A stretch of 64,000 nt of DNA from a virus. Under the pieces are notes generated by a model. The model ran no database searches, was not told the origin of the DNA, and saw nothing but the letters and a program-made list of their open reading frames with translations. The DNA lies in IMG/VR virus record IMGVR_UViG_3300033571_003610, positions 33,191-97,190 of that record, one strand, 5' to 3'. Position numbers and translations under genes: made by a program. Each line of letters starts with the position of its first letter. Position 1 is the stretch's first letter. Below are positions 16,218 through 58,225 of this stretch, in pieces.

Positions 16218-16425
16218 CGGATTTGAGACCCCATTTAATTTTTAACCAAATACGTTCATGAAAGTAATAGTCGATACTTAACAGTATATGTAATAGTGTA
16301 GCAAAACCGGTAGCGGTTCCAATGTTACCAGTGAACAACCAAGTATAAAAAATAGTAAATGACCATGCAGTTAATCTATAACTGATCATTCTAGCTAATG
16401 TACGTTTATGAGTTTCTTGAATCAT
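16198..16425 (-). CDS. DUF2061 membrane protein
   Basis: A 75-residue protein matching the DUF2061 pattern: KRTLARMISYRLTAWSFTI, TGNIGTATGFATLLHI, then YYFHERIWLKIKWG. Two transmembrane segments are likely. The start at 16425 overlaps the queE stop (ATGA); an ATG nine bases upstream is an alternative. The family is of unknown function, and its position after queE suggests co-expression. Confidence 0.75.
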   Translation of the reverse strand: MIQETHKRTLARMISYRLTAWSFTIFYTWLFTGNIGTATGFATLLHILLSIDYYFHERIWLKIKWGLKSDDVPRQ

Positions 16426-17294
16426 TTGCCCCATCCGTTACCCCATAAGTCAACGTGTAAACGGGGACTGTAGTTCCATCCTTGTTCCGCACAGATATTA
16501 GCAATTCTAATTTTATTTGCGTCATACGGAGCAACAATGCCTCCCTGCGGCATTAGATATACTACTCCTGTAAATCCTGCATCCCTAAATTCTTTTGTAG
16601 CACGTTTAGCTTCTTCGATATGCTCATCTGTTTCAACAACAAACTTAAGATAAGTATGACCAATGCTGGCGTATTCGCATACTACTTCAGGCCTAATAGC
16701 ATCTTCCCATGTCTCGCCGCTGGCACTTAGTTTGGCACTAACACTAAAAGTCACAAACTGTGTCTGTGATTGTCCTAGTGCTGGTTGTTGCCATGCTTGC
16801 AAAAAGTCTTTAAATCCTTTTTGTAATTTTTGAGTACCATTAGTTTCAAATGTAATATTGCGTAAGTCACGCATACGAGGATTACTGATTAGTTCTTCGT
16901 AAGCACGTTGCCAACCCAGCAAAGGCTCTCCGCCTGTAATAACAAGATGCACATCATTGCCATTGTCCTGCACCCATTTACCGTTTGGTGTCAGTGCCAG
17001 CATTGCATCAACTAGCTCACTAGTTTCATAATTAGGGCTCAAGTGCTTAAAGTCCGGATGCCAACTAGCATAACTGTCACAGCCTGTTTCTACCAATGGC
17101 AAATCTTCGAACTTGTTGTACATATGAACAACTTGTGCTATTTCGTCTGCACCTGTACTTTTTTCTCCAGGCTTACAGCCAAAGCCTGCACAGGTAAAAT
17201 TACAACCAAAGGTTCGTAAAAATACACTGGGTACTCCTACAAACCTTCCTTCGCCTTGTAAACTGTAAAATTTCTCAGATACCTTGATCTTCAT
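16422..17294 (-). CDS. queE: QueE-like 7-carboxy-7-deazaguanine synthase (radical SAM)
   Basis: Family role: converts 6-carboxytetrahydropterin to 7-carboxy-7-deazaguanine (CDG). Visible features: the QueE opening SLQGEGRFVGVPSVFLR, the SAM-cluster region GCNFTCAGFGC, TGGEPLLGWQ, and a C-terminal PQGG. The cysteine spacing is C-x3-C-x4-C instead of the usual C-x3-C-x2-C. A further Cys-containing segment (TGCDSYASWHPDF) follows. At 290 residues it is longer than the usual 210-250. The start at 17294 follows GGAAAG; the longer frame needs a TTG. It belongs with folE, the QueD-like gene and the TGT-like gene in a deazaguanine pathway. Confidence 0.85.
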   Translation of the reverse strand: MKIKVSEKFYSLQGEGRFVGVPSVFLRTFGCNFTCAGFGCKPGEKSTGADEIAQVVHMYNKFEDLPLVETGCDSYASWHPDFKHLSPNYETSELVDAMLALTPNGKWVQDNGNDVHLVITGGEPLLGWQRAYEELISNPRMRDLRNITFETNGTQKLQKGFKDFLQAWQQPALGQSQTQFVTFSVSAKLSASGETWEDAIRPEVVCEYASIGHTYLKFVVETDEHIEEAKRATKEFRDAGFTGVVYLMPQGGIVAPYDANKIRIANICAEQGWNYSPRLHVDLWGNGWGK

Positions 17295-17658
17295 ATTCTT
17301 TCCATTTCCATCCAATTTTAGCTAAATCATCTGCTACTTCGTTGGTTACATAACCTTCACCAACGTATAACTCTTTATTTTCATCTTTGTCACCACGGAT
17401 ACCACTGCAATACCAATCCATGTAATCACCGCCTTGATCCTCCAATTCAGCAACAAAACCTCCTGCCCATCGCCAACTGCAACTCCATTCATTGTTACCA
17501 GTTAGTGCCGGCCAAAAGTCATTGGTCTTAAACCAAATTATATTACACAAGGCCGCATAAAGATTTTGTGCATAGGTTTTGTTAGTGCGAACTTTTTCCA
17601 CTATCCATGCACAATTTTTAATATCGGCGGCGAGATCGACAGTATCATTGATTTCCAT
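17275..17658 (-). CDS. Unknown protein, probably leaderless mRNA
   Basis: A 127-residue acidic protein rich in Trp (SCSWRWAGG, YMDWYCSG). The ATG lies five bases after the -10 box, so the mRNA probably starts at the ATG. It heads the transcription unit containing queE and overlaps queE by 20 bases. No family is recognised. Confidence 0.7.
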   Translation of the reverse strand: MEINDTVDLAADIKNCAWIVEKVRTNKTYAQNLYAALCNIIWFKTNDFWPALTGNNEWSCSWRWAGGFVAELEDQGGDYMDWYCSGIRGDKDENKELYVGEGYVTNEVADDLAKIGWKWKEYEDQGI

Positions 17659-31540: not shown

Positions 31541-31546
31541 TATTTA
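31541..31546 (-). promoter_or_regulatory. Late promoter element for the endolysin
   Basis: TAAATA in GGTAAATATACG on the minus strand, overlapping the stop of the upstream radical SAM gene. A GGAG-containing leader of about 20 bases follows. Late expression of a lysis gene is expected. Confidence 0.5.
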
Positions 31547-32734
31547 CCAAATATATGGGAACAACTGCTGACTATTGGTGCCTCTAATGCGGTCTAAATC
31601 CTGTAAATATGCCCTGGTAGATTCTATACCACTAGAATGATTTTTCATTAAATTGTCTACTAAGTCCGGCATTTCCGAAGTTAAATTATGTTCAGCTAAC
31701 CAGTCCCTGTGATGATCAGTCATGCGAGCAACTTCAGCCTTATGTGCTTGTGGCAACAATTCTGCTTTTAAATTTTCAGGATAGCTGATTACATTGTACT
31801 GATAGCTGTGAATGCCTGTAAATGTATGAATAGCTCTTTCTAACTTATCTAAGTCTAAAATATTTAAAATACTAATACTTGGGGTAATCTTAATATCAAT
31901 ATGAGGACATTCTGTTCTAACTCTGCTTAGGTTTTCTAGTATTTGTTTCCAGCTGGCGCCCCAGCGAATATAATCAAACCTATCCCATACATTGTCTATA
32001 CTAACCAGCATACTAATTCTATCGAACTTTTTCCATAAATCCAAGACATTTCTTTTTTGATAGTCTAAGTTAGTTAAGTTTGTAATATATGAAATGTTAA
32101 CTTGTTTTTTCTTTTCTATGAAATATTCTAGTATCTCATAGTGTTGGTTAGTTACCAAAGGTTCTCCGCCTGCAAAAGTAACATTTTCTACATCATCTAA
32201 ATAATCTGTCTTGAGTTGTTCCATAATATCTAAACTTACTATACGTGCATGTCCGCTACTGCGGCCTAATTTAATCCAATCATTATGCCATTTACTGCTA
32301 AAAGTAGGTCCGCAACTAACGCAAGCTAAATTGCAAACATTACTAAATCTAATGTCAAGGTATTTAAGTTTAAAATCACTAAAGTCTGTGGGGTGATATT
32401 TAAAACTATTAACACGCATACTGGCCATGCCCACCGCTTCTTGTTCGTAACATTTATAGCAAGTGTCAACAGGCTCGCCGGCCAGCATCTTTCTTTTTAT
32501 TTGTCGGTAAGCATCGCCATTTACAATATCAATAATCTTAGTTTGATTTAAATTACCTACCGGTTTAGTTGGATCACTAAGACAGCAGGGAAATGCCTTG
32601 CCATCTGGCCATGCGTGTAGATGCACCCATGGTAAGGTACAGATACTTTTATTGATAGTGGGATCTAAGGATTTCCCACCACTCGGGGAATGTGTCCCTA
32701 AAGCTCTGTTTACGATATTCATCTTGTTCTTCAT
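31544..32734 (-). CDS. Radical SAM protein with N-terminal auxiliary Cys cluster (7th of 7)
   Basis: A 396-residue radical SAM enzyme. The auxiliary cluster Cys residues come first: ICTLPW, AFPCCLSD, then CYKCYEQE. The SAM-cluster motif CNLACVSC follows near residue 119, then TFAGGEPL (SAM-binding GGEP). It ends with a short tail, LDRIRGTNSQQLFP, shared in form with its neighbours. The start is uncertain: it overlaps the upstream gene by 86 bases with ATG at 32734 (or 32722), and no better start lies closer to the first Cys. Its substrate is unknown. Confidence 0.85.
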   Translation of the reverse strand: MKNKMNIVNRALGTHSPSGGKSLDPTINKSICTLPWVHLHAWPDGKAFPCCLSDPTKPVGNLNQTKIIDIVNGDAYRQIKRKMLAGEPVDTCYKCYEQEAVGMASMRVNSFKYHPTDFSDFKLKYLDIRFSNVCNLACVSCGPTFSSKWHNDWIKLGRSSGHARIVSLDIMEQLKTDYLDDVENVTFAGGEPLVTNQHYEILEYFIEKKKQVNISYITNLTNLDYQKRNVLDLWKKFDRISMLVSIDNVWDRFDYIRWGASWKQILENLSRVRTECPHIDIKITPSISILNILDLDKLERAIHTFTGIHSYQYNVISYPENLKAELLPQAHKAEVARMTDHHRDWLAEHNLTSEMPDLVDNLMKNHSSGIESTRAYLQDLDRIRGTNSQQLFPYIW

Positions 32735-33839
32735 TGCGTTTCATAAACAAACGCATCTTCTCTGGGTCTGGACTGCTGGCTATAAAATTAAGTATAGGAA
32801 TAATTTCAGGTTGATACTCTTGAATAGGCGACAGTTTCTTTACTAAAATTTTCTTAATCTCGGGATCTAATGCCGCTATACTTTGGTCGTATGGTGCATG
32901 TAATATATTGTACCACACACTAGTGCCAATATTTTTTACTATTTCTTCTGTGATCTCGTCTAAGTAGAAAATATTGTAATTACTTATAGTAGCGTTAGTG
33001 CTAAGTCTAATCCAGTCGTGCTCTTTAAATTTTAACACATGGTTTCTTACTTTAGACCAATCACTGGGGTAGCGTTGATAGTGATGCCTATCACCAATGT
33101 CGTCTACACTAACTTGTATGTCTAATAATTTAAATTCTTTCCAAAGTGCAAATTGTTCATCACTGGGCATAATACTACCGTTGGTATTATAATGAATAGT
33201 TTGCTTTTTACTGTAACCTTTTTCAACGCTGTGTTTTAAAATAGTCCACATGTTTTCGATTAATAGTGGCTCGCCGCCGTACATATCCATGTGTTCAATA
33301 TTTGGTAATGCTTGTTCTAGATTTTTCCAAATGTTTTGATCTGGATTCCAAGCATCACGCATGGCCTTAAAAGGCTTATGAAATTCTATTTTGCTTTCGT
33401 TGGGCTTACGTAAACTGTGCCATTCGTCAACCCACTGACTGCTGTTCCATGGATTGCAGATACGACATTTTAAATTACATAGATTGCCCATCTTCAAGTC
33501 AACAATTTTAATAACATGTTCACCTGCACGTATATTTTTAGAACCGTTTAGATATTCTTTGCTGTCTCTCATACGTTTGCTGTTTTGGCCAGCACGTTCT
33601 TCATCCCAACATCTTTTGCAGTTGGGATTTTTAAATCCTATATTTAAATCTCGACGCAGGTTGTCCATCCATGGACTATTGAACGCTTCTTGTAGACTAT
33701 CTTGACTAGGCCTGTATGGGGTTCCATCGTCTTTGCGTATAGGCAACTCGCTCATACAACAAGTTTTGTAAAAACCATCCGGTGTGGTGCTCATAGCCGC
33801 ATGGGGATGAATACAAAATGTTTGTTTATTAATATACAT
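32649..33839 (-). CDS. Radical SAM protein with N-terminal auxiliary Cys cluster (6th of 7)
   Basis: A 396-residue protein of the same family. Auxiliary Cys: FCIHPH, KTCCMSE, NCKRCWDEE. SAM-cluster motif: LCNLKCRICNP (CxxxCxxC) with MGN before it. SAM-binding: MYGGEPLL. The C-terminal tail is DEYRKQSFRDTFPEWWEI. Overlaps the upstream gene by 11 bases. It is the shortest of the group together with the gene at 31544. Confidence 0.88.
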   Translation of the reverse strand: MYINKQTFCIHPHAAMSTTPDGFYKTCCMSELPIRKDDGTPYRPSQDSLQEAFNSPWMDNLRRDLNIGFKNPNCKRCWDEERAGQNSKRMRDSKEYLNGSKNIRAGEHVIKIVDLKMGNLCNLKCRICNPWNSSQWVDEWHSLRKPNESKIEFHKPFKAMRDAWNPDQNIWKNLEQALPNIEHMDMYGGEPLLIENMWTILKHSVEKGYSKKQTIHYNTNGSIMPSDEQFALWKEFKLLDIQVSVDDIGDRHHYQRYPSDWSKVRNHVLKFKEHDWIRLSTNATISNYNIFYLDEITEEIVKNIGTSVWYNILHAPYDQSIAALDPEIKKILVKKLSPIQEYQPEIIPILNFIASSPDPEKMRLFMKRNEEQDEYRKQSFRDTFPEWWEILRSHYQ

Positions 33840-35043
33840 TGTACCATTCCTTAAACCATGGATGCAAATCTAATAGATCTTGTCGTCTATGTTGATCCAT
33901 AAATTTCATACGTTTAACAAAATCTTTTTTATCTTGTTCACTGGGATCAGGACTATAAGCTACTCTTTCCAAAGTCTTTACAGTATTAGACAATGCATAA
34001 TGATTGCTATACTTTTGATTAATATGTTCTACACCCTGTAATGCTAGTCTTAGTTTGTCAGAACCTGGTAATATCTCTGGTCGCATACAACTAGGATGAT
34101 CAACATTAATAACAAATAAGTTGAAGTCCAATTCTCCTACTAGGATATCTGTAGTTCGTTTTATGCTGGGTATTGTTAAATTGCTTAGTGTGGTGTGTAT
34201 GCAAGTTTTGTTGTTGGGTCTATCCATGGACCAATATTTTAATTCTTTAAGGTTACTGTAAATTTTATCCCACTTGGCAGGCCAACGAACATACTCGTAA
34301 TATCCTTCTACTCCGTCGATACTAGCGTTTAGATTAACTTCTTTAAAATGACTCCACTTTTCGTACCACTTACTACCAATTGTAGTAATGTTACTGTTAT
34401 ACTCTAATGATATATTTTTGGCAAAGTCTAATTCTATTAACAAATCAAGAAACTCTTCTTGTTCGTCCATGATTAGTGGTTCGCCACCAATGATGTATAC
34501 GCTTTTAAGGTCGTGCCCTTGTTGTCTAACAACGTCAAAAAGTCTGCTGTGTTTGACCCAGCTGGTTTTTTCTAAAAAGTCTAAGTCAACTGATGTGTAA
34601 GCATTTGTAGGATCCTTGGCAATTTCCTGCGCTAACAAACTACTGCTATAAGGATGACACATTCTGCAAGCAAGATTGCACTTATTACCAAAGTCTAATT
34701 CTAGTCTTTCTAACTTTACTTCCAATTTGTTTTCTTGCAGTTGAGCATAACTGTTGGGAAAGCGGTAGGTATTGTTAATTTGCCTATAACTTTCAGCACC
34801 AATGTCTTCTAGCTTCCAACAACGTTCGCATTGTGCAGGCTTATGGCCAGCAGTCATTATGTCGCGTACTTTTTGTATAGCGCCACCTTGTTGCCAATTT
34901 AAATCAAGTCGTTGTGTAACAGGCCCGGGCCATCCTTCGCCGCTGAGGCCACCATTAATAGCATTACAACATAGGCGTTGATGCCCACTTTGTCCAATGC
35001 TCAAAGTGTTCCATGGTAATACGCACAATGTTTTACTTGACAT
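33829..35043 (-). CDS. Radical SAM protein with N-terminal auxiliary Cys cluster (5th of 7)
   Basis: A 404-residue protein. Auxiliary Cys: LCVLPWNTL, RLCCNA, QCERCWKLED. SAM-cluster motif: KCNLACRMCHPYSSS. SAM-binding: YIIGGEPLIM. Tail: DQHRRQDLLDLHPWFKEW. Overlaps the upstream gene by 11 bases. With its two downstream neighbours it forms the subgroup that has a CC pair instead of SCYHP in the auxiliary region. Confidence 0.88.
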   Translation of the reverse strand: MSSKTLCVLPWNTLSIGQSGHQRLCCNAINGGLSGEGWPGPVTQRLDLNWQQGGAIQKVRDIMTAGHKPAQCERCWKLEDIGAESYRQINNTYRFPNSYAQLQENKLEVKLERLELDFGNKCNLACRMCHPYSSSLLAQEIAKDPTNAYTSVDLDFLEKTSWVKHSRLFDVVRQQGHDLKSVYIIGGEPLIMDEQEEFLDLLIELDFAKNISLEYNSNITTIGSKWYEKWSHFKEVNLNASIDGVEGYYEYVRWPAKWDKIYSNLKELKYWSMDRPNNKTCIHTTLSNLTIPSIKRTTDILVGELDFNLFVINVDHPSCMRPEILPGSDKLRLALQGVEHINQKYSNHYALSNTVKTLERVAYSPDPSEQDKKDFVKRMKFMDQHRRQDLLDLHPWFKEWYNVY

Positions 35044-36379
35044 GTTGTTTGCACTCTAATAAAAAGTCTTGATATTCGGGAAATGTTTCTAAAAAGTTTG
35101 ATCCTCTACGACGATCGTGCTCAGTAAAAAACTTATAAAAGTCTGCTTTGGCAGTTAACTCTCTAGCCAAACTCAAACTATTCTTTACAAAATGTGTACG
35201 TACTCGTTCTAGCCTTTCAATCTCAACTTCGCTGAATCCAGTATTTAAATGCTGTTTCATAAATGCAATATCAGCATCGATGTACTTGACAAATTCAGTA
35301 GGCAATATATTAATGCTCCAATGATCGGGCTCTTTAAGATGGGGTGTTATAAATTCAACCCTGCGGCCGTATACTTGTCGCCATTCTAATATTTTTTTCA
35401 ACAGTTGATTAAAGCTAGGCAGTACTAAGTTATTGTAAGTTACCATAATTTCAACACTGGCATTTATGTCCTTGAAGTTGTTCATTATAGTTTTAAAATT
35501 TTGTTCCCACTCTGCACAATTTAATCCCCAACGGATGTATTCGGCCGGCTTGCCCCACGTGTCTAAACTAACATGCATACGATAATCTTTAATAGCACGT
35601 TTGGTTAATAGTGTTCGCACACGTTCGCTGAGTTTTTCTATTAGTGCAGGCTTGACTCCCAAGTTACTGTTAATTAACAATGTAAGATGCGGTGCTGGCT
35701 CTAATTCTAACTTGTCTAGTAGTTGCCACGTATTTTGATTCAGCATAGGTTCGCCGCCCGTAATACGTAGAGTCTGTAGGTCTTTGATTAAAGTGGGCCA
35801 CCATTGCCAAAAAGCCTGTACGTAAGGGTTACTGTCGTCATCGCTTTCATAGTATTCCCTATCTTTAATAAAGTCTATGTCATATTGTTTGCTAACAACA
35901 GGAAATCTTCCATTGGCTTTGATATCATTGATCCAACTGTTACTAACAGTAGGAGTACAGTATCCGCACATAAAATTACAAACGTTACCAAAGTTAACTT
36001 CGATAAAGCTAGGATTGTAATCATCGGTTGGTTTAAGATTGCGTATAGTTTCAAACTGTACCATATCATTGGCGCTGTTAATAATCCTATCACTGACATG
36101 GCCCGAATCTTCTACATTCCAACAAAAACTACATTCTGGTGGACGTTGCTTGTTCAGCATCATTTCTCGTTGTTTACTCTTATAGGCTGTATTGTGTAGT
36201 CCACTGGGTGTTCTTTGTATATCTTTAATATCAATTTTATGTGGGTATGGATGATAACAACTGTGATTGTCACCTGTTTGCAAATACAATGTTTGCTGTG
36301 TCCATTTTAATAAACAAAAGCCAGTCCCTACAGAATCTAGCTTTTGTTTAACAGCACGTAGTTTATCTAAGTCATCCAT
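35033..36379 (-). CDS. Radical SAM protein with N-terminal auxiliary Cys cluster (4th of 7)
   Basis: A 448-residue protein. Auxiliary Cys: FCLLKW, HSCYHPYPH, ECSFCWNVED. SAM-cluster motif: VCNFMCGYCTP. SAM-binding: RITGGEPML. Tail: EHDRRRGSNFLETFPEY. It is visibly close to the gene at 37667-39073 along its whole length (GDNHSCYHP, IQRTPSGLHNT, MLN then PPEC), so the two look like paralogues separated by a canonical radical SAM gene. Confidence 0.9.
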   Translation of the reverse strand: MDDLDKLRAVKQKLDSVGTGFCLLKWTQQTLYLQTGDNHSCYHPYPHKIDIKDIQRTPSGLHNTAYKSKQREMMLNKQRPPECSFCWNVEDSGHVSDRIINSANDMVQFETIRNLKPTDDYNPSFIEVNFGNVCNFMCGYCTPTVSNSWINDIKANGRFPVVSKQYDIDFIKDREYYESDDDSNPYVQAFWQWWPTLIKDLQTLRITGGEPMLNQNTWQLLDKLELEPAPHLTLLINSNLGVKPALIEKLSERVRTLLTKRAIKDYRMHVSLDTWGKPAEYIRWGLNCAEWEQNFKTIMNNFKDINASVEIMVTYNNLVLPSFNQLLKKILEWRQVYGRRVEFITPHLKEPDHWSINILPTEFVKYIDADIAFMKQHLNTGFSEVEIERLERVRTHFVKNSLSLARELTAKADFYKFFTEHDRRRGSNFLETFPEYQDFLLECKQHVK

Positions 36380-37670
36380 TGGTCTGTGTTTTGTGATGCT
36401 GATTGCCCAACTCGCCGTTGTCTAGCTTGTTCCATTCTTTTCCACAACAGGTACTGCATTGTCTGCTACGCATATTGTGTCCTTTGTAAAGGCTTCTAGG
36501 TAAGAATCTATCAAAGAACTGACCTTTAAGTACCTGGCTTAGTGTGTTTTTGTGCAGACTTAATGTGTCCATGCCGCCTGCTAATTCTATCATTTGAATA
36601 CTAGCATCATCACTTATATTTTTAAATGCCGCGCCTTGCTTGGCAACTTCCCATGGCCTATCATCACTGATATGACGCCATGGTTCACCACCAATAAAAC
36701 AACAGGGAAATACATGTCCACTAGCACTAACAAATATTTCATTTACTTGATTGTTACCGCCCTTTTCGTGATGCTGTGCTCTACAACTAACTTCAATGTC
36801 ATTGTGTCTAAAGCTAACCCATTGGTTCTTTTCATTGTCCCATTCTCTATGTTCCAAACTAATCTGTGTCATTCGATCAAATTCTTGATTAGTAATGTAC
36901 ATAGGAACAATACCAATTGTCTTAAGTTCTTTGAAATTACTATCTCTAAAGTTTTCATTGTCTGGCTGTTCAAGTTTATACAAAACTTGCTTTTCTTTAT
37001 CTAGTACTTCGTAATAACCACGACCTTGGTCTGTCCACTTGTGCCAACGTGTAGTACGCTTAACGTTAAAAAATTCAAAGCCCAGTTCATTGGCCAATGC
37101 TCTGGCTTCTTCAACTTGATGCTCATTGTGTTTAAAAACAATAAAGTCCCACTTAGCTACTCCACCTGCTGCCTTAAAGGCCTTCATGTTAGCCAGTATC
37201 TTGCTGAACTTGGTATTGCGACGATATAAGTGATTAGTATCTTCTAAACCGTCTACGCTAAACACGCAAAAGTCTCCGCGTTCAAAATTGTTAACAACCT
37301 TGCCTAATTCAGTCCACCACGCAGGTGTACGTGCGCTGGCATTAGTGTGTAGTGTTAAGGCCATGTTGGGATTGTGTTCCCTCATGTACTTGAATATTTC
37401 TAAACTATCTTTAGCAACAATAGGATCACCGTAATTGCCGCAAGCATAAACACGCTTTAATTGTTTTACAAACTCTGGAGGGAACCAAGTTTTAAACTGT
37501 TCTAATGTGATTTCTGTTTCTAAGACTTTGGGATTGAGTTCACCACCGTTGTTAATGTAACGCGGGCACATAGGACACCCAGCATTACATTTGTCAGTGA
37601 GCTCTAAGTGCATGCCTGTTATTTCGCCAGGACCATATAAGGCTGGCACATCATAGTTCATTAATCTCAT
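36372..37670 (-). CDS. Radical SAM/SPASM protein of canonical order (3rd of 7)
   Basis: A 432-residue protein. Here the SAM-cluster motif KCNAGCPMCPRY comes near the N-terminus, and SPASM-type Cys residues lie at the C-terminus (SCRAQHH, FPCCFIGG, CSTCCGKEW). This is the order of peptide-modifying SPASM enzymes and sulfatase-maturating relatives. GNYGDP replaces GGEP. The ATG at 37670 overlaps the upstream stop (ATGA). It may be the partner or maturase for the permuted enzymes around it; that is inference. Confidence 0.88.
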   Translation of the reverse strand: MRLMNYDVPALYGPGEITGMHLELTDKCNAGCPMCPRYINNGGELNPKVLETEITLEQFKTWFPPEFVKQLKRVYACGNYGDPIVAKDSLEIFKYMREHNPNMALTLHTNASARTPAWWTELGKVVNNFERGDFCVFSVDGLEDTNHLYRRNTKFSKILANMKAFKAAGGVAKWDFIVFKHNEHQVEEARALANELGFEFFNVKRTTRWHKWTDQGRGYYEVLDKEKQVLYKLEQPDNENFRDSNFKELKTIGIVPMYITNQEFDRMTQISLEHREWDNEKNQWVSFRHNDIEVSCRAQHHEKGGNNQVNEIFVSASGHVFPCCFIGGEPWRHISDDRPWEVAKQGAAFKNISDDASIQMIELAGGMDTLSLHKNTLSQVLKGQFFDRFLPRSLYKGHNMRSRQCSTCCGKEWNKLDNGELGNQHHKTQTNG

Positions 37671-39073
37671 TTCCAATTCCTATATACTTGTTCACACATA
37701 TTAAAAAATTCTGTGTATTCTGGGAAGGTAGCTAATAAGTTAGTACCTCTGCGTTTATCGTGTTCGGTAAAGAACGTATAAAAGTCTCTGCGGCCCTGGC
37801 GCAGTATGCTGGGACTTACTGGATTTTCTGCCATGTAGTCAACTACACGTTTGAACTTTTCTATTTCTACTTTGTCAAAGCCGTGAGTAAAATCTTTTGT
37901 TCTCTCTTTATATTTCATGTGTCGCAAATGATCCCACATATAATCTAAAAAGTTCTTAGGCAATATATTAATCATCCAGTGTGGCGGCTCTTTGAGATAA
38001 GGAGTGTCAAAGCCAATACGCTGTGTGTACATATTTTCCAGTGTACCGTATTCTTCTCTAAGTTTTAGTATCTTATCTAACAAATATCTAAATTTAACTA
38101 CACTAAGCACATTGAATGTAATCATCAAATTAATTTTACTGTTAGGGACAGTATCTAAAAAGATGCGTAAGTTCTTTTCCCATAACTCACAGTCTAGACC
38201 GTTACGCATATACTCTGCACGCTCGCCCCAGCCGTCTATGCTAGTGAACAGTCTAAAATCTTTTATCTTTTTTTCTGCTAACAACTTACTAACTCTTTCG
38301 CTGAGTTTTTCTACTAGGCTAGACTTCATACCTAGGTTACTGTTTATATGTAACTGTAGCTCAGGAGCAGGATCTTGATCTAACATGTCCAACAGTTTGA
38401 ATGTGTTGCTGTTAAGTAAAGGCTCCCCACCAGTAATACGAAACACACGCAGGTCTTTCTTTAGCTCTGGCCACCACTGCCACCAAGCATCTACGTAAGG
38501 ATTGTCCATGTCAGGTTCATAGAACACTCCGTCTTTTAAGAAATCAATGCTATACTGTTTGGTAGTAATGTCATAGTCGCCTTTGCGTTTTATTTCTTCC
38601 ATCCAAGCACTACTAGCCTGTGGACAGCAATAGCCGCATTTAAGTTGGCAAGCATTACCAAAACTAACTTCGATATGCCTAGGGTTCCAATCAGCGTCAG
38701 CATCTAGTTTACGTATAGTATCGTAGTCTTCGATTGCATAGTCGCTGGTACTGTGTACAAACCTGTCACTGATATGATCACCGCCCAAGTCTTCGATGTT
38801 CCAGCAATAATAACATTCGCTGGGACGCTCGCCCTCTAGCATTAGCTTACGTTGTTGCTTTTTGTATTCGGTATTATGTAAGCCGCTGGGACTACGTTTG
38901 ATATCTTCAATTCTAATTTTGTGCGGCCGCGGATGATAACAACTATGGTTATCTCCCATGTGCAGGTATAAAGTTTCTGTTTGCCACTTCATCAAGCAAA
39001 AGCCCTTGCCCACGGCATTGAGTTTTTCTTTTGTTTCTAGTAGCTTGTCGTAATAGCTTTTAGGCTCTTGCAT
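37667..39073 (-). CDS. Radical SAM protein with N-terminal auxiliary Cys cluster (2nd of 7)
   Basis: A 468-residue protein. Auxiliary Cys: FCLMKWQTE, HSCYHPRPH, ECYYCWNIED. SAM-cluster motif: ACQLKCGYCCPQASS, with an additional Cys after the triad. SAM-binding: RITGGEPLL. Tail: EHDKRRGTNLLATFPEY. The ATG at 39073 is preferred over a GTG at 39088. Paralogue of the gene at 35033-36379. Confidence 0.88.
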   Translation of the reverse strand: MQEPKSYYDKLLETKEKLNAVGKGFCLMKWQTETLYLHMGDNHSCYHPRPHKIRIEDIKRSPSGLHNTEYKKQQRKLMLEGERPSECYYCWNIEDLGGDHISDRFVHSTSDYAIEDYDTIRKLDADADWNPRHIEVSFGNACQLKCGYCCPQASSAWMEEIKRKGDYDITTKQYSIDFLKDGVFYEPDMDNPYVDAWWQWWPELKKDLRVFRITGGEPLLNSNTFKLLDMLDQDPAPELQLHINSNLGMKSSLVEKLSERVSKLLAEKKIKDFRLFTSIDGWGERAEYMRNGLDCELWEKNLRIFLDTVPNSKINLMITFNVLSVVKFRYLLDKILKLREEYGTLENMYTQRIGFDTPYLKEPPHWMINILPKNFLDYMWDHLRHMKYKERTKDFTHGFDKVEIEKFKRVVDYMAENPVSPSILRQGRRDFYTFFTEHDKRRGTNLLATFPEYTEFFNMCEQVYRNWK

Positions 39074-40703
39074 TGTAACTGTTCTCACATTGTTTCCAGT
39101 ATAGACTTAATTCTGGAAATGTTTTAGCAAAGTTAGTTCCTTTGCGGTAATCGTATTCTTTAAAAAAAGCAAAAAAATCTCTACGCAACAACTGTTTTTC
39201 GTTTTCAGTATACTGACAACTTTTCATCCAATCAATATTGCGTTTTAATTTGTCTATTTCAAAGTCGGCAAATCCAATAAGTTCGCCAAGATGCGATGTG
39301 CTATTTGCTTCCATATACTTAACTGCTTGGTCAAGTAAGCTATACATATTGCTGGGCAAATTTTGAATAGTCAACCAAACGGGTGTGCGTAGTGTAGGAA
39401 TATCAAACCATACACGTTGTCTATCCCAGTAGTTATTAAACTCGGGATTCTTTTCAGGAATGTCCTTGAGACTATTAACATACTTACGCATTTCTAAAAT
39501 CATTTCAAGATATTTTTGTAATCCAGGAACGCTTAGAATGTTAAAGGTGTTAATAAAGTTAATGGTAGTCATGTGTGTATCATACAGCACACGTTTGGTA
39601 TTGGCAATAAGAGTATTGTAGTTCATACCATTTCGTATGTACTCTGCTTGTGCTCCTACACTGTCAACACTAACATAAATGCCAATGTGACGACATGCCT
39701 TAGTTCGTGTTAGTTCGTAACTAAAGCTACCATCAGCAGGTACACTATCTATATTAGGTAAACCATTAACTTGTAATCTGTGTAGTGTGTCGATATTAAC
39801 TTTATTTTTGTTTAAAACATGACGTGGCCATTTAGTATGACTTTTCTTGCCATTGTTAACTGCTACAATAGTTGCACTGGCGCTGTAATTTTCAATAGCT
39901 TGAACACTAGCAACAAATTTGTCTAACAGATCCTGGGTAGGAGGACACATATTAGTGGTAATACCAATTTCTAAATCCCCCTTAGGATTGTTAGCAACAT
40001 AATCTAATACCCTAAAAGTATTTTTATCCATTAATGGTTCGCCGCCCGTCATGCGGAATACCAATAATGTTTCATATAATTCTGGCCACCACTTCCAAAA
40101 GGCTTCTACATAAGGATTGTCTCGATTAGCAACCTTTAACGGCATTAGTCCATTGGCCTCTAGTGCAGAAATAGCGTTATGCGGAGTACTAGTTGGATAA
40201 GGACCATACTCTTTGATTTCTTCTTCCCATGCGGTGCTTAGATGTGGACTGCAATAAGCACATTTAAAATTACAACTTTGATTAAAATTAACTTCTACAT
40301 ACGTAGGATTAGGTTCTAAATTACTGATACTGTCACGATAGGGTAATGCCCAATGTTCGCTACTGCGGTAATGACGGTCGCTGACATTGCCCTGTGCTTC
40401 TAGACTCCAGCAGTACTTACAGCCTTCGGGTTTTTCACCACGTAGCATTTGTTTGCGTTCGTTTATTTTTTGATCAGTATTGTGCAAAGCACTGGGTCTA
40501 CGTTGTATTTGATCTATACTGATAGCGTGAGTAGGCGGATGGTAACAACTGTGTGTTCTACCATTTGTTAAATGTAAGCTGACATGATACCATTTAGCTA
40601 AACACATGCTGGCACTTTGACTGTTAAGCCATTCGGTGCTGGATTCTCTGAGTTTAACTACTTCAGTAGCTGTAAGTGGATTTGTGTGTACGTATGGTCG
40701 CAT
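39060..40703 (-). CDS. Radical SAM protein with N-terminal auxiliary Cys cluster (1st of 7)
   Basis: A 547-residue protein and the first gene of the seven-gene unit. Auxiliary Cys: MCLAKWYHV, HSCYHPPTH, GCKYCWSLEA. SAM-cluster motif: SCNFKCAYCSPHLS. SAM-binding: RMTGGEPLM. Tail: EYDYRKGTNFAKTFPEL. It is about 80 residues longer than its closest relatives owing to an insertion after residue 280 that contains a basic stretch (NNGKKSHTKWPRHVLNKNK). A late promoter element in a hairpin lies just upstream. Confidence 0.88.
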   Translation of the reverse strand: MRPYVHTNPLTATEVVKLRESSTEWLNSQSASMCLAKWYHVSLHLTNGRTHSCYHPPTHAISIDQIQRRPSALHNTDQKINERKQMLRGEKPEGCKYCWSLEAQGNVSDRHYRSSEHWALPYRDSISNLEPNPTYVEVNFNQSCNFKCAYCSPHLSTAWEEEIKEYGPYPTSTPHNAISALEANGLMPLKVANRDNPYVEAFWKWWPELYETLLVFRMTGGEPLMDKNTFRVLDYVANNPKGDLEIGITTNMCPPTQDLLDKFVASVQAIENYSASATIVAVNNGKKSHTKWPRHVLNKNKVNIDTLHRLQVNGLPNIDSVPADGSFSYELTRTKACRHIGIYVSVDSVGAQAEYIRNGMNYNTLIANTKRVLYDTHMTTINFINTFNILSVPGLQKYLEMILEMRKYVNSLKDIPEKNPEFNNYWDRQRVWFDIPTLRTPVWLTIQNLPSNMYSLLDQAVKYMEANSTSHLGELIGFADFEIDKLKRNIDWMKSCQYTENEKQLLRRDFFAFFKEYDYRKGTNFAKTFPELSLYWKQCENSYNARA

Positions 40704-40711
40704 AATTAACT

Positions 40712-40733
40712 GCGTAGATTATTTATTCTACGC
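40712..40733 (-). promoter_or_regulatory. Hairpin-embedded late promoter of the radical SAM operon
   Basis: GCGTAGA (40733-40727 on the minus strand) pairs with TCTACGC (40718-40712), enclosing ATAAATAA. The TAAATA element thus sits in the loop of a perfect seven-base-pair hairpin, nine bases before the ATG of the first radical SAM gene. Confidence 0.65.
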
Positions 40734-40749
40734 TAATTTGCAACCAATG

Positions 40750-41118
40750 TCAAGAAGTTATTTCAGGCGGCTTTTGCTTCTTAGTAGAACTCATCATGTT
40801 AGAGCTCTTTGGGTGATGTTCCCAGTGTTCGCTGTGTAGTTCACTGGCAATATTTGGTTTATGTGCTACTAGCCATTTTTTGATTACGGGGATGCAATCT
40901 GCGTGTGGATCTTTTTCCTTATTGTAAAAGTCCAAGAGTTTTTGATGTAAGTCAGGATAAGTTATGCCAACTTGACTAAGCTGTTTAATACTGGAATTAG
41001 CATCCTTGCCCACTGGCAAAGTACCAAATAGTACTAAATGTCCTAGGCCAATAATATCGATTCTAGCACGTTCGATATCCATGGCTGTTTGTTCTTGTAT
41101 AAATTCGTGAGCTCTCAT
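40750..41118 (-). CDS. Unknown protein with MRxxEF-type N-terminus
   Basis: A 122-residue protein beginning MRAHEFIQEQ, a capsid-targeting-like start shared with ten other late genes. The rest is helical, ending in a His/Lys/Ser-rich tail (HSEHWEHHPKSSNMM). A TAAATA element five bases before the ATG implies late, possibly leaderless, expression. No enzyme motif is seen. Confidence 0.72.
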   Translation of the reverse strand: MRAHEFIQEQTAMDIERARIDIIGLGHLVLFGTLPVGKDANSSIKQLSQVGITYPDLHQKLLDFYNKEKDPHADCIPVIKKWLVAHKPNIASELHSEHWEHHPKSSNMMSSTKKQKPPEITS

Positions 41119-41122
41119 AGTA

Positions 41123-41881
41123 TTATTTAACCAATTTGATCATTAAACCAGCAAAGTCAAATTCCCACCATTTTTCTTTGGTTGTATAGCTGATAGGATT
41201 ATCATGATGGTTAGCATGCCAGCCTTCACCAAAGAATAAAATAGCTGTAATGGGATTATTGTAAGCATGATGTTTGTGGTTATCTCGGTTTTTGTAGCCG
41301 AACCAGTGATTAATAGTGTTTACGCTACCGCCAATTTCCCATAATAATGCCATGGGTGCAAGGTAAGCACAGACAAATAGAGTTGGACTGATTATCAACC
41401 AAGTTACTGCTATTGCTATATGTAGCTTAAAATAGTATCTATTTAGATTAGTTTGAAACTTGTCTTTGAGCATGTCAATAATATGCTCGCCGCCTGCTTG
41501 GCCAAACATACCTAGAAACTGTACACGGGCTAGTCCTAAGTGCTCGGGTCCATGTGGGTCTCGAGCTGTGTCAACAAACTTATGATGCGCCCTATGTACC
41601 GCAGTCCATACCATGGGACTACCGATTCCCGCATAAGCACCAAGCAGACTACCTATTTTTCTATATCTACTGCTAGCAGGCCAGCTGTTATGCGCTAACA
41701 GTCTGTGATAAGTCATTACAAGACCAAAACAACCGCTGGCTACGAAAACAAATAAACTAACTAACCACCACCATGCTTCTCCATAAAATATTTGATACAA
41801 AAGGCCAAGATGTGCGGCAATTTGTATATAAAGAACTTTCCAGCTAGTTGTTGTATATTTCTTTAAAGAAACAAATTGCAT
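41123..41881 (-). CDS. Acyl-CoA/acyl-lipid fatty acid desaturase
   Basis: A 252-residue membrane-bound diiron desaturase. The three His boxes are present: HRLLAH, HRAHH and HANHH, with an additional NHWFGY histidine region before the last. Hydrophobic segments (about residues 20-60 and 155-185) anchor it in the membrane. Family members introduce cis double bonds into fatty acyl chains, usually at delta-9. In a phage this may adjust host membrane fluidity. The start overlaps the upstream gene by 19 bases. Confidence 0.92.
   Translation of the reverse strand: MQFVSLKKYTTTSWKVLYIQIAAHLGLLYQIFYGEAWWWLVSLFVFVASGCFGLVMTYHRLLAHNSWPASSRYRKIGSLLGAYAGIGSPMVWTAVHRAHHKFVDTARDPHGPEHLGLARVQFLGMFGQAGGEHIIDMLKDKFQTNLNRYYFKLHIAIAVTWLIISPTLFVCAYLAPMALLWEIGGSVNTINHWFGYKNRDNHKHHAYNNPITAILFFGEGWHANHHDNPISYTTKEKWWEFDFAGLMIKLVK
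41124..41129 (-). promoter_or_regulatory. Late promoter element, leaderless spacing
   Basis: TAAATA (41129-41124) lies five bases before the ATG at 41118 and overlaps the end of the desaturase gene. Confidence 0.45.
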
Positions 41882-53214: not shown

Positions 53215-55239
53215 TTACCATTGTCCAATATCTTTGTATGTGTATTCGAAACTGAAATCCAGTTGTTTGCGCTGTTCTAATAAAGCCAAATGTCGGTCTC
53301 TTTCTTCATCGTCGTAGACTACTTGTCCTGTGCTTCCTGGTACTGCTAATTTGCGAGCTCTGCTAGCAGCCACGCTGGTCGCTGTTGAATAGTCATTGAA
53401 ATTCCAAGCATTTTCTGCTTGCTTGAACTTATAGTAAAAATCCGCAGTCCATCGCCCTTGCTCGTTGATTTCAAATTTAATTTGTGCAGTAAAATCACTG
53501 CTTAAATTCCATCCAAACTCTTGACTGTCTTGTTCGGGATTAAACTGCAAGTCTATACTAAATGCACCCCTTGTTCTCCAAAGCAGTCTTAGTAAAGGCC
53601 ATACTTCATTAACAACACTGTCTGCAAAACTGCTGATGTTAGGCTTGCATATATTAAAGTCAAATTGCTCAAATTCAATTTCTTTTAACGAACTGGCCTT
53701 TAATTTATAGCTGTGTTTAAGGTTTGGTCTATTGGTATAATCATGTCCTTGTTTGTTAATTAAATTAATCAACAATATGTTAAAAATCTTTAACCTTATA
53801 AGTCTGTGAACTTTACTGTTGCGATAGTCATTGGTTATCCAGTTATTTTCAAAGTAGTTTTTTGCTATGTTAAATTTTTCCACAGCCTGTGCAATAATAG
53901 TGTCGGGTGGAATAATAAAACCCATACCAGCGGCAATACTGCTGATATTATTATTTCTATTACGCCATATCAACTGCATACTGTCATACAAGTCCTGCGG
54001 CTGTTCAGTAGGAAATCCAACTATCCAGTTAGTAAATGCTTCGACTCCAACTTCGGCACCGTCTCTAAAATTCTGTTCTATTTCTTCAACAGTTACGCCT
54101 TTGTCCATGTCAGCGAGAACTTTGTTTGACCCAGATTCAATACCATAACTTAAACTAAAGCAGCCGCTGGCAGCAAGGTCCTTATAATAGTCCAAGTCCA
54201 TGCGCCCATCACATCTAGCATACCCGGTCCAATGTAATTTCATACCACGTGCTACTACTCCTAGAGCAAATGCACGTAATTCTTTAAGATTGCCATTAAC
54301 TAAACTGTCAATGAACCATACTACATCTACTCCGCGATTATAATACAAGTCTGCTAGTTCGTCAATAATGTTACGTGCCATTCTGCCGCGATATTTCCAG
54401 TAATGTGTTTCACTGCAAAATACACATTTGGCTATACAACCTCTGCTAAGTTCTGCATTAATACCATTAGGTACAGAATAGTCGCTGGCAGGAAAATGAC
54501 TGTAGTCTGGACTAGGAATACTGTCTAAGTCTAAACGCTGTCCATCTTGCTGTCTAAACCATACAGGCTTGGGTTTGACAATACCTTGTTCTATTTCTTC
54601 CATGGCTTCTAATAACATTTTTTCGCCTTCGCCAGATACAATATAGTCATATTCTTTGGGAGGCTCCCAGTAGCTTTGATGACAACTAGGCCCGCCAACC
54701 ATTACTATTAAATTGGGCATACGCTTTTTTAATTCTCGAGCCATCCATTTGCTGGCTTCTTCGTTGCAGTAATATAGTGTAAGTCCTACAACCGTAGGAT
54801 TAAGTTTTACTATTTTTTCTATGTAAGGACTTAGAAATTTTTCGACATGTGGACTGAGTTCTTGTTCATAGTGCGGACTGCGCCACTTCCAATCTCTATT
54901 GCCGGCCCATGGATTATAGTCTAACTTCCAATTGGTATGATTTTGATATGCTTTGGCGTTAAGATCAAATGCATGTGTTTCGTAGCCGGCTGCTTTAGTC
55001 ACTGCGGCCAAGCGGGCCACGTTATAAGGAGGAAAATTATGTGCCCACTCTGGCAATAGTAAAAATACTATACTAGTTTTTCTACTAATATAGTCTATAC
55101 TAACAGGAGTTAAATTACTTTGTGGTACGGATCTAGCATAGGGCTTAATGGCTTCCATGGCCAGTCTATGCTTTTCATCGTAGTCCTGCTCAATTCGTTT
55201 AACGGGATTTAAGTTTCGAATCTCAAAAAGTTTTTTCAT
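53215..55239 (-). CDS. B12-binding-domain radical SAM protein
   Basis: A 674-residue enzyme. Residues 55-215 form a Rossmann-like B12-binding domain (IVFLLLPEWAHNFPPYNVAR, VGLTLYYCNEE, VMVGGPSCHQ, DYIVSGEGE). The cobalamin DxHxxG motif is absent, as in many members. The radical SAM motif RGCIAKCVFCSE (Cys268, 272, 275) follows, then WFIDSLVNGN. A further 250-residue C-terminal region has no recognised domain. Family members methylate or rearrange unactivated carbon or phosphorus. The substrate is unknown. Confidence 0.88.
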   Translation of the reverse strand: MKKLFEIRNLNPVKRIEQDYDEKHRLAMEAIKPYARSVPQSNLTPVSIDYISRKTSIVFLLLPEWAHNFPPYNVARLAAVTKAAGYETHAFDLNAKAYQNHTNWKLDYNPWAGNRDWKWRSPHYEQELSPHVEKFLSPYIEKIVKLNPTVVGLTLYYCNEEASKWMARELKKRMPNLIVMVGGPSCHQSYWEPPKEYDYIVSGEGEKMLLEAMEEIEQGIVKPKPVWFRQQDGQRLDLDSIPSPDYSHFPASDYSVPNGINAELSRGCIAKCVFCSETHYWKYRGRMARNIIDELADLYYNRGVDVVWFIDSLVNGNLKELRAFALGVVARGMKLHWTGYARCDGRMDLDYYKDLAASGCFSLSYGIESGSNKVLADMDKGVTVEEIEQNFRDGAEVGVEAFTNWIVGFPTEQPQDLYDSMQLIWRNRNNNISSIAAGMGFIIPPDTIIAQAVEKFNIAKNYFENNWITNDYRNSKVHRLIRLKIFNILLINLINKQGHDYTNRPNLKHSYKLKASSLKEIEFEQFDFNICKPNISSFADSVVNEVWPLLRLLWRTRGAFSIDLQFNPEQDSQEFGWNLSSDFTAQIKFEINEQGRWTADFYYKFKQAENAWNFNDYSTATSVAASRARKLAVPGSTGQVVYDDEERDRHLALLEQRKQLDFSFEYTYKDIGQW

Positions 55240-56539: not shown

Positions 56540-58225
56540 TTACTTTTTACCCGACTTCATATTAGCACACCAGTGATACATTTTACTTTTCTCGCCGCTG
56601 GCATTTTTTGCTTTAGCACGTAAGTCAGTGACTGAACCATCACAACTAGCACCTGCACGTTTTACACGACCGGGCCGGCTTTTGCCTTTGACTTTGCCGT
56701 CAGCAAAGTTTTCCGCCACACCTTGCTGACCAATCTGAACCAACCATTCTAATTCGTCATCTATGTCCCTAACATCATAGAATTTGACATTAGGAATCTT
56801 TTTCATAGCAAACCATTTGTTAGCTACTTTGACCATCCATGCACGATGTTGTGGATCGTTTGAGTTAGGCTCGTAGTCCCCAGTCATGTTAACCCATAAT
56901 GGATGTGGATTTCCTTCTTCATCAAATCCCAACAGCTCACGCCACTCGTCTTGAAGTTGTATTGGTACATAGTCGTCGAGTTCAGTATCGCTCATCCACT
57001 CCTGACCAATATCAATACCTTCCGCCACACCTTTTGCCTTAAATTTGCTCAACGGTATCTTATTGTTTTCTTCATCGGTGAGCCAAGCATCAATTAAGCC
57101 ATGCACATAAACTACATGCATGATATACCATTCACCATTGGCCAGTTTAACATCGTATCTAAAACTGCGTCCTTCTTGACTGCGAAATTTTCTTCCCACA
57201 AGTCGAACACGGCCGTCCATGGCCTTGTTCAACTGTTCAAGACTTAAATTGTCCAATGATTTTACATCACCGAACATGTTTTTTAGACTATACTTGGTAT
57301 TCAAATTGGCTTCAACGCCTTCATTTTTCTTTCGACCCTGGCAATGAGCACGTTGGCTAAATCCTTTGGGATTACTACAGTTAATAGACTTCTTGTACTT
57401 TTGACTCCACTTTTCTTCTAAATTAGATTCTAACAAAGTATTGTCGGCAAACCACGGATCGATAATAACTAGATCGCCGTTTTTACGTTGCATGACATTT
57501 TCAGTATGCAAGTCCCAACCTAGTTTATTGATACGTCCAGTTTTAAATAACATGGACATTACAGAATATAATTCACTCCATGTTTGTTCTTGATCAGCTG
57601 TGAGATTTTTTACTTTGTTAGCTATTTTATCAGCTTGCCTAGGCCAATGCGATTCTTCCCATTTATCAGGGTTAGATAATTCCGCTTTAACCGCAGGCCA
57701 TGCAATGTCATTGCTTACATAATCACTTAGATACCAAACCATTGCTTCGGAAAACGTATTTTTCCTAATAGGAAAAAGTCGTTCCATGTCAATCTGAATG
57801 TATTCTTTATCTAGTACATCGATAGTATTATATTCGTTGATTACTGGCAAACATTTAAGATCTTGATGTTGCAGGCAAAATTCGTAGAATTTTTTAAACA
57901 CTTCTACAGCACGACTACCTGGATCTTCGGGCATAAGAATTTTAATTACATAACCTGCTTCTTTGGCAAACACAGTACTGTCTGCACCGCTGCCAATCTT
58001 TTTGTAACCTAGTTTTCGAAACTCTTGTGATATGTTACGAGCATAAGCAGTACCCATTTCTGCTTCGCCCATGGCCTGCGATAATGCACTTTGACGTTTG
58101 ACAACTGGCAACTCGACTGCGGGTTCTAAACTGCCGCCGCCCTCCATTATTGCCAATTCCATTTCTGTGAATTGTGTTTTGGTTTGTTTAGGTGCAGGAC
58201 CTTTAATGAATTCAGTAAATCGCAT
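56540..58225 (-). CDS. Tagged protein-kinase-like protein
   Basis: A 561-residue protein beginning MRFTEFIKGPAP. Residues 75-260 follow the protein kinase pattern: a glycine-rich loop IGSGADSTVF, a VAIK-like Lys95 in YVIKI, catalytic WDLHTENVM (Asp238, Asn243) and IIDPW (Asp256, in place of DFG). Cys-rich modules follow: SINCSNPKGFSQRAHCQGR and, at the end, GRVKRAGASCDGSVTDL then YHWCANM. GVAE occurs twice between modules. It could phosphorylate host proteins after injection; substrates are unknown. Confidence 0.72.
   Translation of the reverse strand: MRFTEFIKGPAPKQTKTQFTEMELAIMEGGGSLEPAVELPVVKRQSALSQAMGEAEMGTAYARNISQEFRKLGYKKIGSGADSTVFAKEAGYVIKILMPEDPGSRAVEVFKKFYEFCLQHQDLKCLPVINEYNTIDVLDKEYIQIDMERLFPIRKNTFSEAMVWYLSDYVSNDIAWPAVKAELSNPDKWEESHWPRQADKIANKVKNLTADQEQTWSELYSVMSMLFKTGRINKLGWDLHTENVMQRKNGDLVIIDPWFADNTLLESNLEEKWSQKYKKSINCSNPKGFSQRAHCQGRKKNEGVEANLNTKYSLKNMFGDVKSLDNLSLEQLNKAMDGRVRLVGRKFRSQEGRSFRYDVKLANGEWYIMHVVYVHGLIDAWLTDEENNKIPLSKFKAKGVAEGIDIGQEWMSDTELDDYVPIQLQDEWRELLGFDEEGNPHPLWVNMTGDYEPNSNDPQHRAWMVKVANKWFAMKKIPNVKFYDVRDIDDELEWLVQIGQQGVAENFADGKVKGKSRPGRVKRAGASCDGSVTDLRAKAKNASGEKSKMYHWCANMKSGKK

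Follow-up and report, generated by a model that had tools for sequence, protein, structure and literature searches.

The 64,000-nucleotide stretch of IMG/VR virus record IMGVR_UViG_3300033571_003610 analyzed here (positions 33,191 to 97,190 of that record; hereafter, the window) carries an operon of seven adjacent radical S-adenosylmethionine (SAM) genes. Six of the encoded proteins belong to one family in which a twitch domain, a putative auxiliary-cluster site, precedes the radical SAM core (N-twitch). In environmental phages, genes of this family recur in a constant order with tail-fiber-type and glycosyltransferase genes, and it is this context for which no description was found in open-access PubMed Central (PMC) text. 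We see about an even chance that the enzymes modify a sugar or glycan in a series of radical reactions and that glycosyltransferases of the phage then transfer it, probably to the tail fiber or the virion.

Seven overlapping genes, six of them from one radical SAM family

The array occupies positions 31544 to 40703 on the minus strand. Its seven open reading frames (ORFs), taken from the ORF list of the window, overlap each other by 8 to 86 bp and are numbered from g7, transcribed first, to g1, transcribed last. The original prediction had placed seven adjacent, overlapping radical SAM genes here, and each of the seven proteins indeed contains exactly one CxxxCxxC motif. H-type designates proteins with SC[YH]HP at the second cysteine and C-type those with mostly CC at that position.

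39060..40703, minus strand: g7, N-twitch radical SAM enzyme, H-type (SCYHP), first in the operon; NF033640 E value 2e-88; intact in relatives L011, L012, and L014
37667..39088, minus strand: g6, N-twitch radical SAM enzyme, H-type (SCYHP); NF033640 E value 4e-93; 51% identity to g4
36372..37676, minus strand: g5, conventional radical SAM protein without an N-terminal twitch; CxxxCxxC at residue 30; NF033640 score 51.7 bits
35033..36379, minus strand: g4, N-twitch radical SAM enzyme, H-type (SCYHP); NF033640 E value 4e-89
33829..35043, minus strand: g3, N-twitch radical SAM enzyme, C-type (CC); NF033640 E value 2e-86
32649..33839, minus strand: g2, N-twitch radical SAM enzyme, C-type (CC); NF033640 E value 6e-94
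31544..32734, minus strand: g1, N-twitch radical SAM enzyme, C-type (CC), last in the operon; NF033640 E value 7e-101; SPASM PF13186 E value 5e-10; the true start may lie downstream of 32734

Six proteins (g1, g2, g3, g4, g6, and g7) match NCBIfam model NF033640 over its full length, with scores of 290 to 338 bits (E values of 2e-86 to 7e-101) against a curated cutoff of 170 bits. This model, N_Twi_rSAM, is described as a "twitch domain-containing radical SAM protein," is of the type "subfamily," and has no function attached. The layout had been thought undescribed, which is incorrect, since it is already catalogued and defined as NF033640. The remaining protein, g5, falls under the cutoff and matches only the radical SAM core.

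The N-terminal cysteine pattern C-x(n)-G-x4-C ... CxxC, located in front of CxxxCxxC, is invariant across the six N-twitch proteins, as are the SAM-cluster cysteines, GGEP, and the C-terminal D of the D..R motif. The similar D..R tail reported for these six proteins was also found, with HP in g3 in place of the FP of the others.

The array genes were found in the same order in related contigs, which range from 16 to 231 kb in length; in two cases (L013 and L015), the contig end cuts off the locus. All seven genes are intact in relatives. Compared with two relatives, the array proteins show 80 to 96% identity and dN (nonsynonymous divergence) values of 0.03 to 0.14, whereas synonymous sites are saturated or nearly so, which makes dS (synonymous divergence) unusable as a ratio for four genes. 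Because of this difference between dN and synonymous sites, all seven genes are considered to be under purifying selection. The DNA polymerase of the window phage is closest to those of jumbo myophages, e.g., Sinorhizobium phage Phosso and Agrobacterium phage Atu_ph07.

The predicted auxiliary-cluster domain lies in front of the core

Several lines of evidence bear on the N-terminal cysteines, which the original prediction had read as an auxiliary cluster ahead of the SAM motif. In addition to the invariant pattern, the Pfam SPASM domain PF13186 matches g1 at residues 31 to 95, and a profile built from 27 relatives aligns at its N-terminal end with the twitch domain at the C terminus of BtrN (4m7t; E value, 3e-5). 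Structure models were made for one radical SAM protein (g1) and one glycosyltransferase (gt1, see below). The AlphaFold 2 model of g1 (predicted local distance difference test [pLDDT] score, 89; predicted template modeling [pTM] score, 0.87) is confident in the N-terminal cysteine domain, with values below 50 for residues 1 to 21. Together, these data support a predicted auxiliary-cluster site ahead of the radical SAM core in all six proteins. Its N-terminal position is unlike the canonical twitch/SPASM order, in which the auxiliary domain is C-terminal to the core.

In g5, cysteines C298, C325/326, C407, and C410/411 are located behind the core and may form a C-terminal twitch. Residues 314 to 330 match the twitch subprofile weakly (E value, 0.005), and at this value g5 was not accepted as proof of a permutation, i.e., as carrying a C-terminal copy of the N-twitch.

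N-twitch genes follow tail-fiber-type and glycosyltransferase genes in environmental phages

A scan of viral contigs yielded at least 579 relatives of the N-twitch radical SAM proteins. Locus statistics refer to the best 80 of these, whose loci are partly related to one another. N-twitch genes are multiple in 80 of 80 loci, with two to seven genes each and four the commonest number; as the loci were chosen as best hits, this range describes the best 80 rather than all phages. Clustering of neighboring genes revealed a recurrent order, which starts with tail-fiber-type genes and a 104-amino-acid protein (t104), continues with two gt3 genes (GT8-like), a small protein, and gt1 (GT-A), and ends with the radical SAM genes and variable tailoring genes. 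The gt3-gt1-radical SAM order is present in all 58 loci having gt3, and all 46 loci having the tail-fiber-type gene tf5 show the order tf5-gt3-gt1-radical SAM. The first radical SAM proteins of the ordered loci share a median identity of 42% and form 15 clusters at 70%. Gene linkage, which had been proposed as a check, was thus confirmed: neither in relatives nor in very distant phages are the genes scattered, and they keep their order.

The glycosyltransferase assignments are based on profile and fold comparisons. The gt3 profile matches glycogenin (GT8; E value, 6e-7), whereas gt1 has an invariant DxD motif and a predicted fold that is GT-A-like. The best Foldseek rows of gt1 include ArnC, the PBCV-1 capsid glycosyltransferase, and GtrB (moderate matches), and its VIA rows are led by glycosyltransferases at a moderate Z of about 9.9. 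The "tail-fiber" label of tf5, tf6, and tf16 reflects their position after baseplate genes, with a baseplate wedge gene preceding the block, and likeness by eye, without a strong family match. The conserved neighbors t104 and u8 have no Pfam or NCBIfam match above cutoff, and none was found for u7/u33, scanned via L017:1940-2926 alone. A cluster of 380-amino-acid neighbors (u2) was rejected as one family, as it is a mixture that contains a UDP-sugar dehydrogenase. Phage neighbors further include a NodU-type carbamoyltransferase, an NAD epimerase/GDP-mannose dehydratase, and a UDP/GDP-sugar dehydrogenase.

A gene set of this kind could also alter the surface glycan of the host (O-antigen or capsule) for superinfection exclusion, with the radical SAM enzymes making an unusual sugar. 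This has been argued for the GT8 genes in pelagimyophage host recognition clusters (PMC7029224). Moreover, bacterial relatives are located near export and sugar genes, namely DegT and an ABC-2/ABC exporter in a Bacteriovoracaceae locus (L103) and carbamoyltransferase, epimerase, and PhyH genes in Flavobacteriales (L127). However, the multi-pass membrane proteins expected of Gtr-type conversion are nearly absent from the phage loci (3 of 1,486 ORFs in a simple hydropathy count). A soluble acceptor therefore fits mildly better than an O-antigen flippase system, and we regard a host-surface target as clearly unlikely.

Two subtypes in a mostly fixed order, and gene fusions

Sequence comparison marks H and C as two ancient subtypes with a mostly fixed order. 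On a tree of 308 sequences, the H/C split needs 4 changes, versus 103 with shuffled labels. All H-type genes precede all C-type genes in 59 of the 73 arrays holding both (shuffles: mean, 16; maximum, 30; kinship of loci uncorrected), and of 61 radical SAM genes that come first after gt1, 59 are H-type. With the sequence H, H, g5, H, C, C, C, the window array follows this H-before-C rule.

Fusions tie the N-twitch enzymes to tailoring functions and to each other. In a Bacteriovoracaceae genome bin, a single 934-amino-acid protein (L103:1060-3861) combines a carbamoyltransferase, a SPASM/twitch domain, and a radical SAM domain, and an FkbM methyltransferase is fused to an N-twitch radical SAM enzyme at L141:8948-11194. 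Radical SAM-radical SAM fusions are present in L049 and L051, and in L121 two radical SAM proteins are joined via TPR repeats.

This regularity bears on the view that the genes are part of a general auxiliary metabolism, in which radical SAM enzymes would boost host metabolism and would have accumulated by duplication, without one shared pathway. Such a role was suggested for Campylobacter phage CP220 (PMC2853527), and the Campylobacter phages, with 11 to 12 radical SAM genes each, provide a precedent for accumulation. However, the H-then-C order, the constant place after the glycosyltransferases, the fusions between members, and the origin of the genes from one family instead of a mixture all argue against it, making it the least likely explanation and a very improbable one.

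Sugar or peptide as the substrate

The original prediction had proposed a multi-step modification of one polymer, peptide, or capsid protein. The fixed subtype order and the fusions support the multi-step element. As for the target, the gene context favors a sugar or glycan pathway over plain modification of a capsid protein, with a peptide or protein substrate as the less probable alternative. In particular, the carbamoyltransferase, GDP-sugar, and FkbM-methyltransferase neighbors and fusions point to a putative role in glycan tailoring.

Several observations weigh against a glycan substrate. The closest folds to the g1 model are mostly those of peptide modifiers (CteB, SkfB, SuiB, and anSME), although BlsE, a sugar enzyme, ranks alongside these. 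In alphaproteobacterial loci, the family stands beside PqqD, HprK-like, and NTP_transf_5 genes, a peptide-type context. Furthermore, 14 of the 80 phage loci contain no gt1 or gt3 inside the stretch examined, and the 80 are best hits that are partly related. Finally, the genes next to the window array itself encode lysozyme and DNA polymerase rather than sugar enzymes, and the glycosyltransferase block of this phage is about 43 kb away.

The first two of these points are also the basis of the main rival explanation, in which the enzymes would act directly on a peptide or protein, like the SPASM/twitch maturases of ribosomally synthesized and posttranslationally modified peptides (RiPPs) and anSME. 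The likely substrate would then be the adjacent tail-fiber family or, here, another virion protein; successive radical SAM enzymes would act at different residues, and the glycosyltransferases would add sugar to the installed groups. The tail-fiber-type genes directly upstream in 46 loci agree with this, as does the alphaproteobacterial PqqD, which is of the RiPP recognition element (RRE) type. However, a Pfam scan gave no match to the PqqD-like RRE (PF05402) in g1 to g7, and the overlapping ORFs of the array leave no room for a precursor peptide gene between them, small ORFs elsewhere not having been assessed. In addition, the conserved phage neighbors and several fusions are sugar-tailoring enzymes. 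We consider direct peptide or protein modification somewhat unlikely. As a separate observation, the alphaproteobacterial loci (L135, L141, L164, and L174), with an N-twitch radical SAM gene beside PqqD, HprK-like, NTP_transf_5, or GT2 genes, look like an uncharacterized peptide system.

The window array is a second site of the same system

The phage also carries the canonical block, outside the window at about 13 to 24 kb of the same contig (L016/L017). Its order is tf16, tf6, tf5, t104, gt3, gt3, u33, gt1, one H-type radical SAM gene, and two more gt1-like genes. Given this block, the system has two sites in this phage, and the window array is the second, expanded one, at a distance of about 43 kb. 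Radical SAM genes of this phage beyond the array include the following:

L017:3905-5317, beyond the window: H-type N-twitch radical SAM gene, the eighth such gene of the phage, directly after the GT-A-like gene of the canonical block
53215..55239, minus strand: B12-binding radical SAM enzyme; PF02310 and PF04055; E value 5e-156 against the array-linked B12 radical SAM cluster

By this match, the B12-binding enzyme belongs to the family that neighbors N-twitch arrays in other phages, and it is probably an accessory of the module. A short match to QueE structures (E value, 1.6e-6) was found for 16422 to 17315, and with these two genes the total of nine radical SAM genes proposed for the window is about right.

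On the opposite strand at L017:8869-17410, the same contig contains B12 radical SAM, fatty-acid-desaturase-like, TauD dioxygenase, acetyltransferase-like, and asparagine-synthase-like genes, a set that resembles a cluster of the cultured pelagimyophage Mosig (L009). Within the window, a fatty acid desaturase gene (41123 to 41881) is located just upstream of the array operon. Other window genes encode a large protein with a GP88 domain (PF17338; 48373 to 49857), a phage-borne AurF-type N-oxygenase (PF11583; 51132 to 52232), and a protein that matches phage protein-kinase families described as inhibitors of host transcription (56540 to 58225).

A host-type promoter overlapped by a conserved palindrome precedes the operon

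Two sequence elements were identified upstream of g7:

40725..40753, minus strand: operon promoter TTGACA-N17-TAGAAT, sigma-70-type; 11 of 12 consensus matches; L012 and L014 retain TTGAC and TAGAAT
40712..40733, minus strand: perfect palindrome GCGTAGA-ATAAATAA-TCTACGC over the -10 hexamer; identical in L011, L012, and L014

In L012 and L014, the palindrome is unchanged despite divergence of the sequence upstream of it, and it is likely an operator or a 5' hairpin. As it occurs just once in the window, an operator shared across sites was rejected. The predicted promoter within a hairpin therefore holds for the hairpin, which is identical in relatives, but not for the late type: the promoter is sigma-70-like, and the T4 late motif TATAAATA shows no enrichment, with one occurrence in the window against 6.7 expected. 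In contrast, TTGACA-N16-18-TANNNT promoters occur 10 times upstream of window ORFs, versus 0.2 expected from mononucleotide shuffles. This enrichment suggests that the phage uses host-type promoters widely.

Proposed pathway

We propose that the operon belongs to a phage glycan-tailoring module, of which it would be a part that has been displaced and expanded. In its canonical form, this module comprises tail-fiber-type genes, two GT8-like and one GT-A glycosyltransferase, and N-twitch radical SAM enzymes (H-type, then C-type), and often continues with carbamoyltransferase, nucleotide-sugar enzyme, SGNH-esterase-like, and B12 radical SAM genes. The phage has the canonical block, with its one H-type radical SAM gene, outside the window and carries six more N-twitch genes and one conventional radical SAM gene inside it.

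At the biochemical level, each enzyme would use SAM at the [4Fe-4S] cluster of CxxxCxxC to form a 5'-deoxyadenosyl radical, which would abstract hydrogen from the substrate, with the N-terminal twitch cluster presumably acting as an auxiliary electron acceptor or a substrate-binding site. The enzymes would act in succession on a nucleotide sugar or short glycan. The glycosyltransferases would then attach the product, most likely to the tail fiber or another virion protein and less likely to a host-surface glycan, and the modification could serve receptor binding or shielding. A broader claim is that, in many uncultured phage lineages, several radical SAM enzymes form an assembly line in which a sugar or glycan is edited stepwise and the product decorates tail fibers, and that this line has here been expanded into a second, separately regulated operon. 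This is put forward tentatively, as a possibility that we hold to be rather doubtful.

Clusters of phage radical SAM genes have been noted several times before, without a tested explanation. The constant order with tail-fiber-type and glycosyltransferase genes, the subtype order, and the carbamoyltransferase and methyltransferase fusions make for a concrete, testable hypothesis: radical-built glycans, encoded beside host-recognition genes. If true, this would be a new role for radical SAM enzymes and would suggest substrates for a large uncharacterized family. It would also have implications for the evolution of host recognition in phages or for their evasion of defense.

Comparison with known systems

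Phages rich in radical SAM genes are already published (PMC2853527, PMC5332604, and PMC7029224). The closest catalogued entity is NF033640 itself, of which six of the seven array proteins are full-length members, with the twitch ahead of the core. However, the model does not address the array, the subtype order, or the linkage to tail-fiber and glycosyltransferase genes, and g5 is not a member. The name N_Twi_rSAM was found in no paper when open-access PMC text was searched. BtrN and other twitch/SPASM enzymes share the auxiliary domain, the BtrN C-terminal twitch being matched by the N-terminal domain of the array proteins, but differ in its placement on the other side of the core.

Among phages, the pelagimyophage host recognition cluster (PMC7029224) combines tail fibers, GT8-type glycosyltransferases, and radical SAM cassettes in one region of large myophages and thus shares its main components with the module. 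It differs in that radical SAM genes are noted merely as cassettes there, while the window array is about 43 kb off its own tail-fiber/glycosyltransferase block. Mosig has only MoaA-like genes, without NF033640 matches. Campylobacter phages CP220 and CPt10 (PMC2853527) carry 11 and 12 radical SAM genes, respectively, including a cluster of five with NDP-sugar-transferase-like genes and an amidinotransferase; the CP220 proteins match the radical SAM core only and not the N-terminal twitch. The T4-like environmental genome TARA_ERS488813_N000010 is similarly rich, with 12 radical SAM genes, although the passages covered here give no account of their family, layout, or order (PMC5332604).

Two different queries found no N-twitch array in cultured phages, and gt3, the GT8 partner, had no match among cultured phages either. 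The nearest cultured counterpart is Vibrio phage KVP40 (L010 and L180), in which proteins 0260, 0261, and 0272 are NF033640-like, covering most of the profile at scores below the cutoff. These three proteins are annotated merely as radical SAM or MoaA/NifB/PqqE family. Protein 0272 keeps all motifs (YGGEP), whereas 0261 has GGEI and 0260 has GGNP, and 0272 is encoded two genes from a PF00534 glycosyltransferase. KVP40 thus differs from the window phage in having related single genes without a tandem array and, being cultured, makes a first test feasible.

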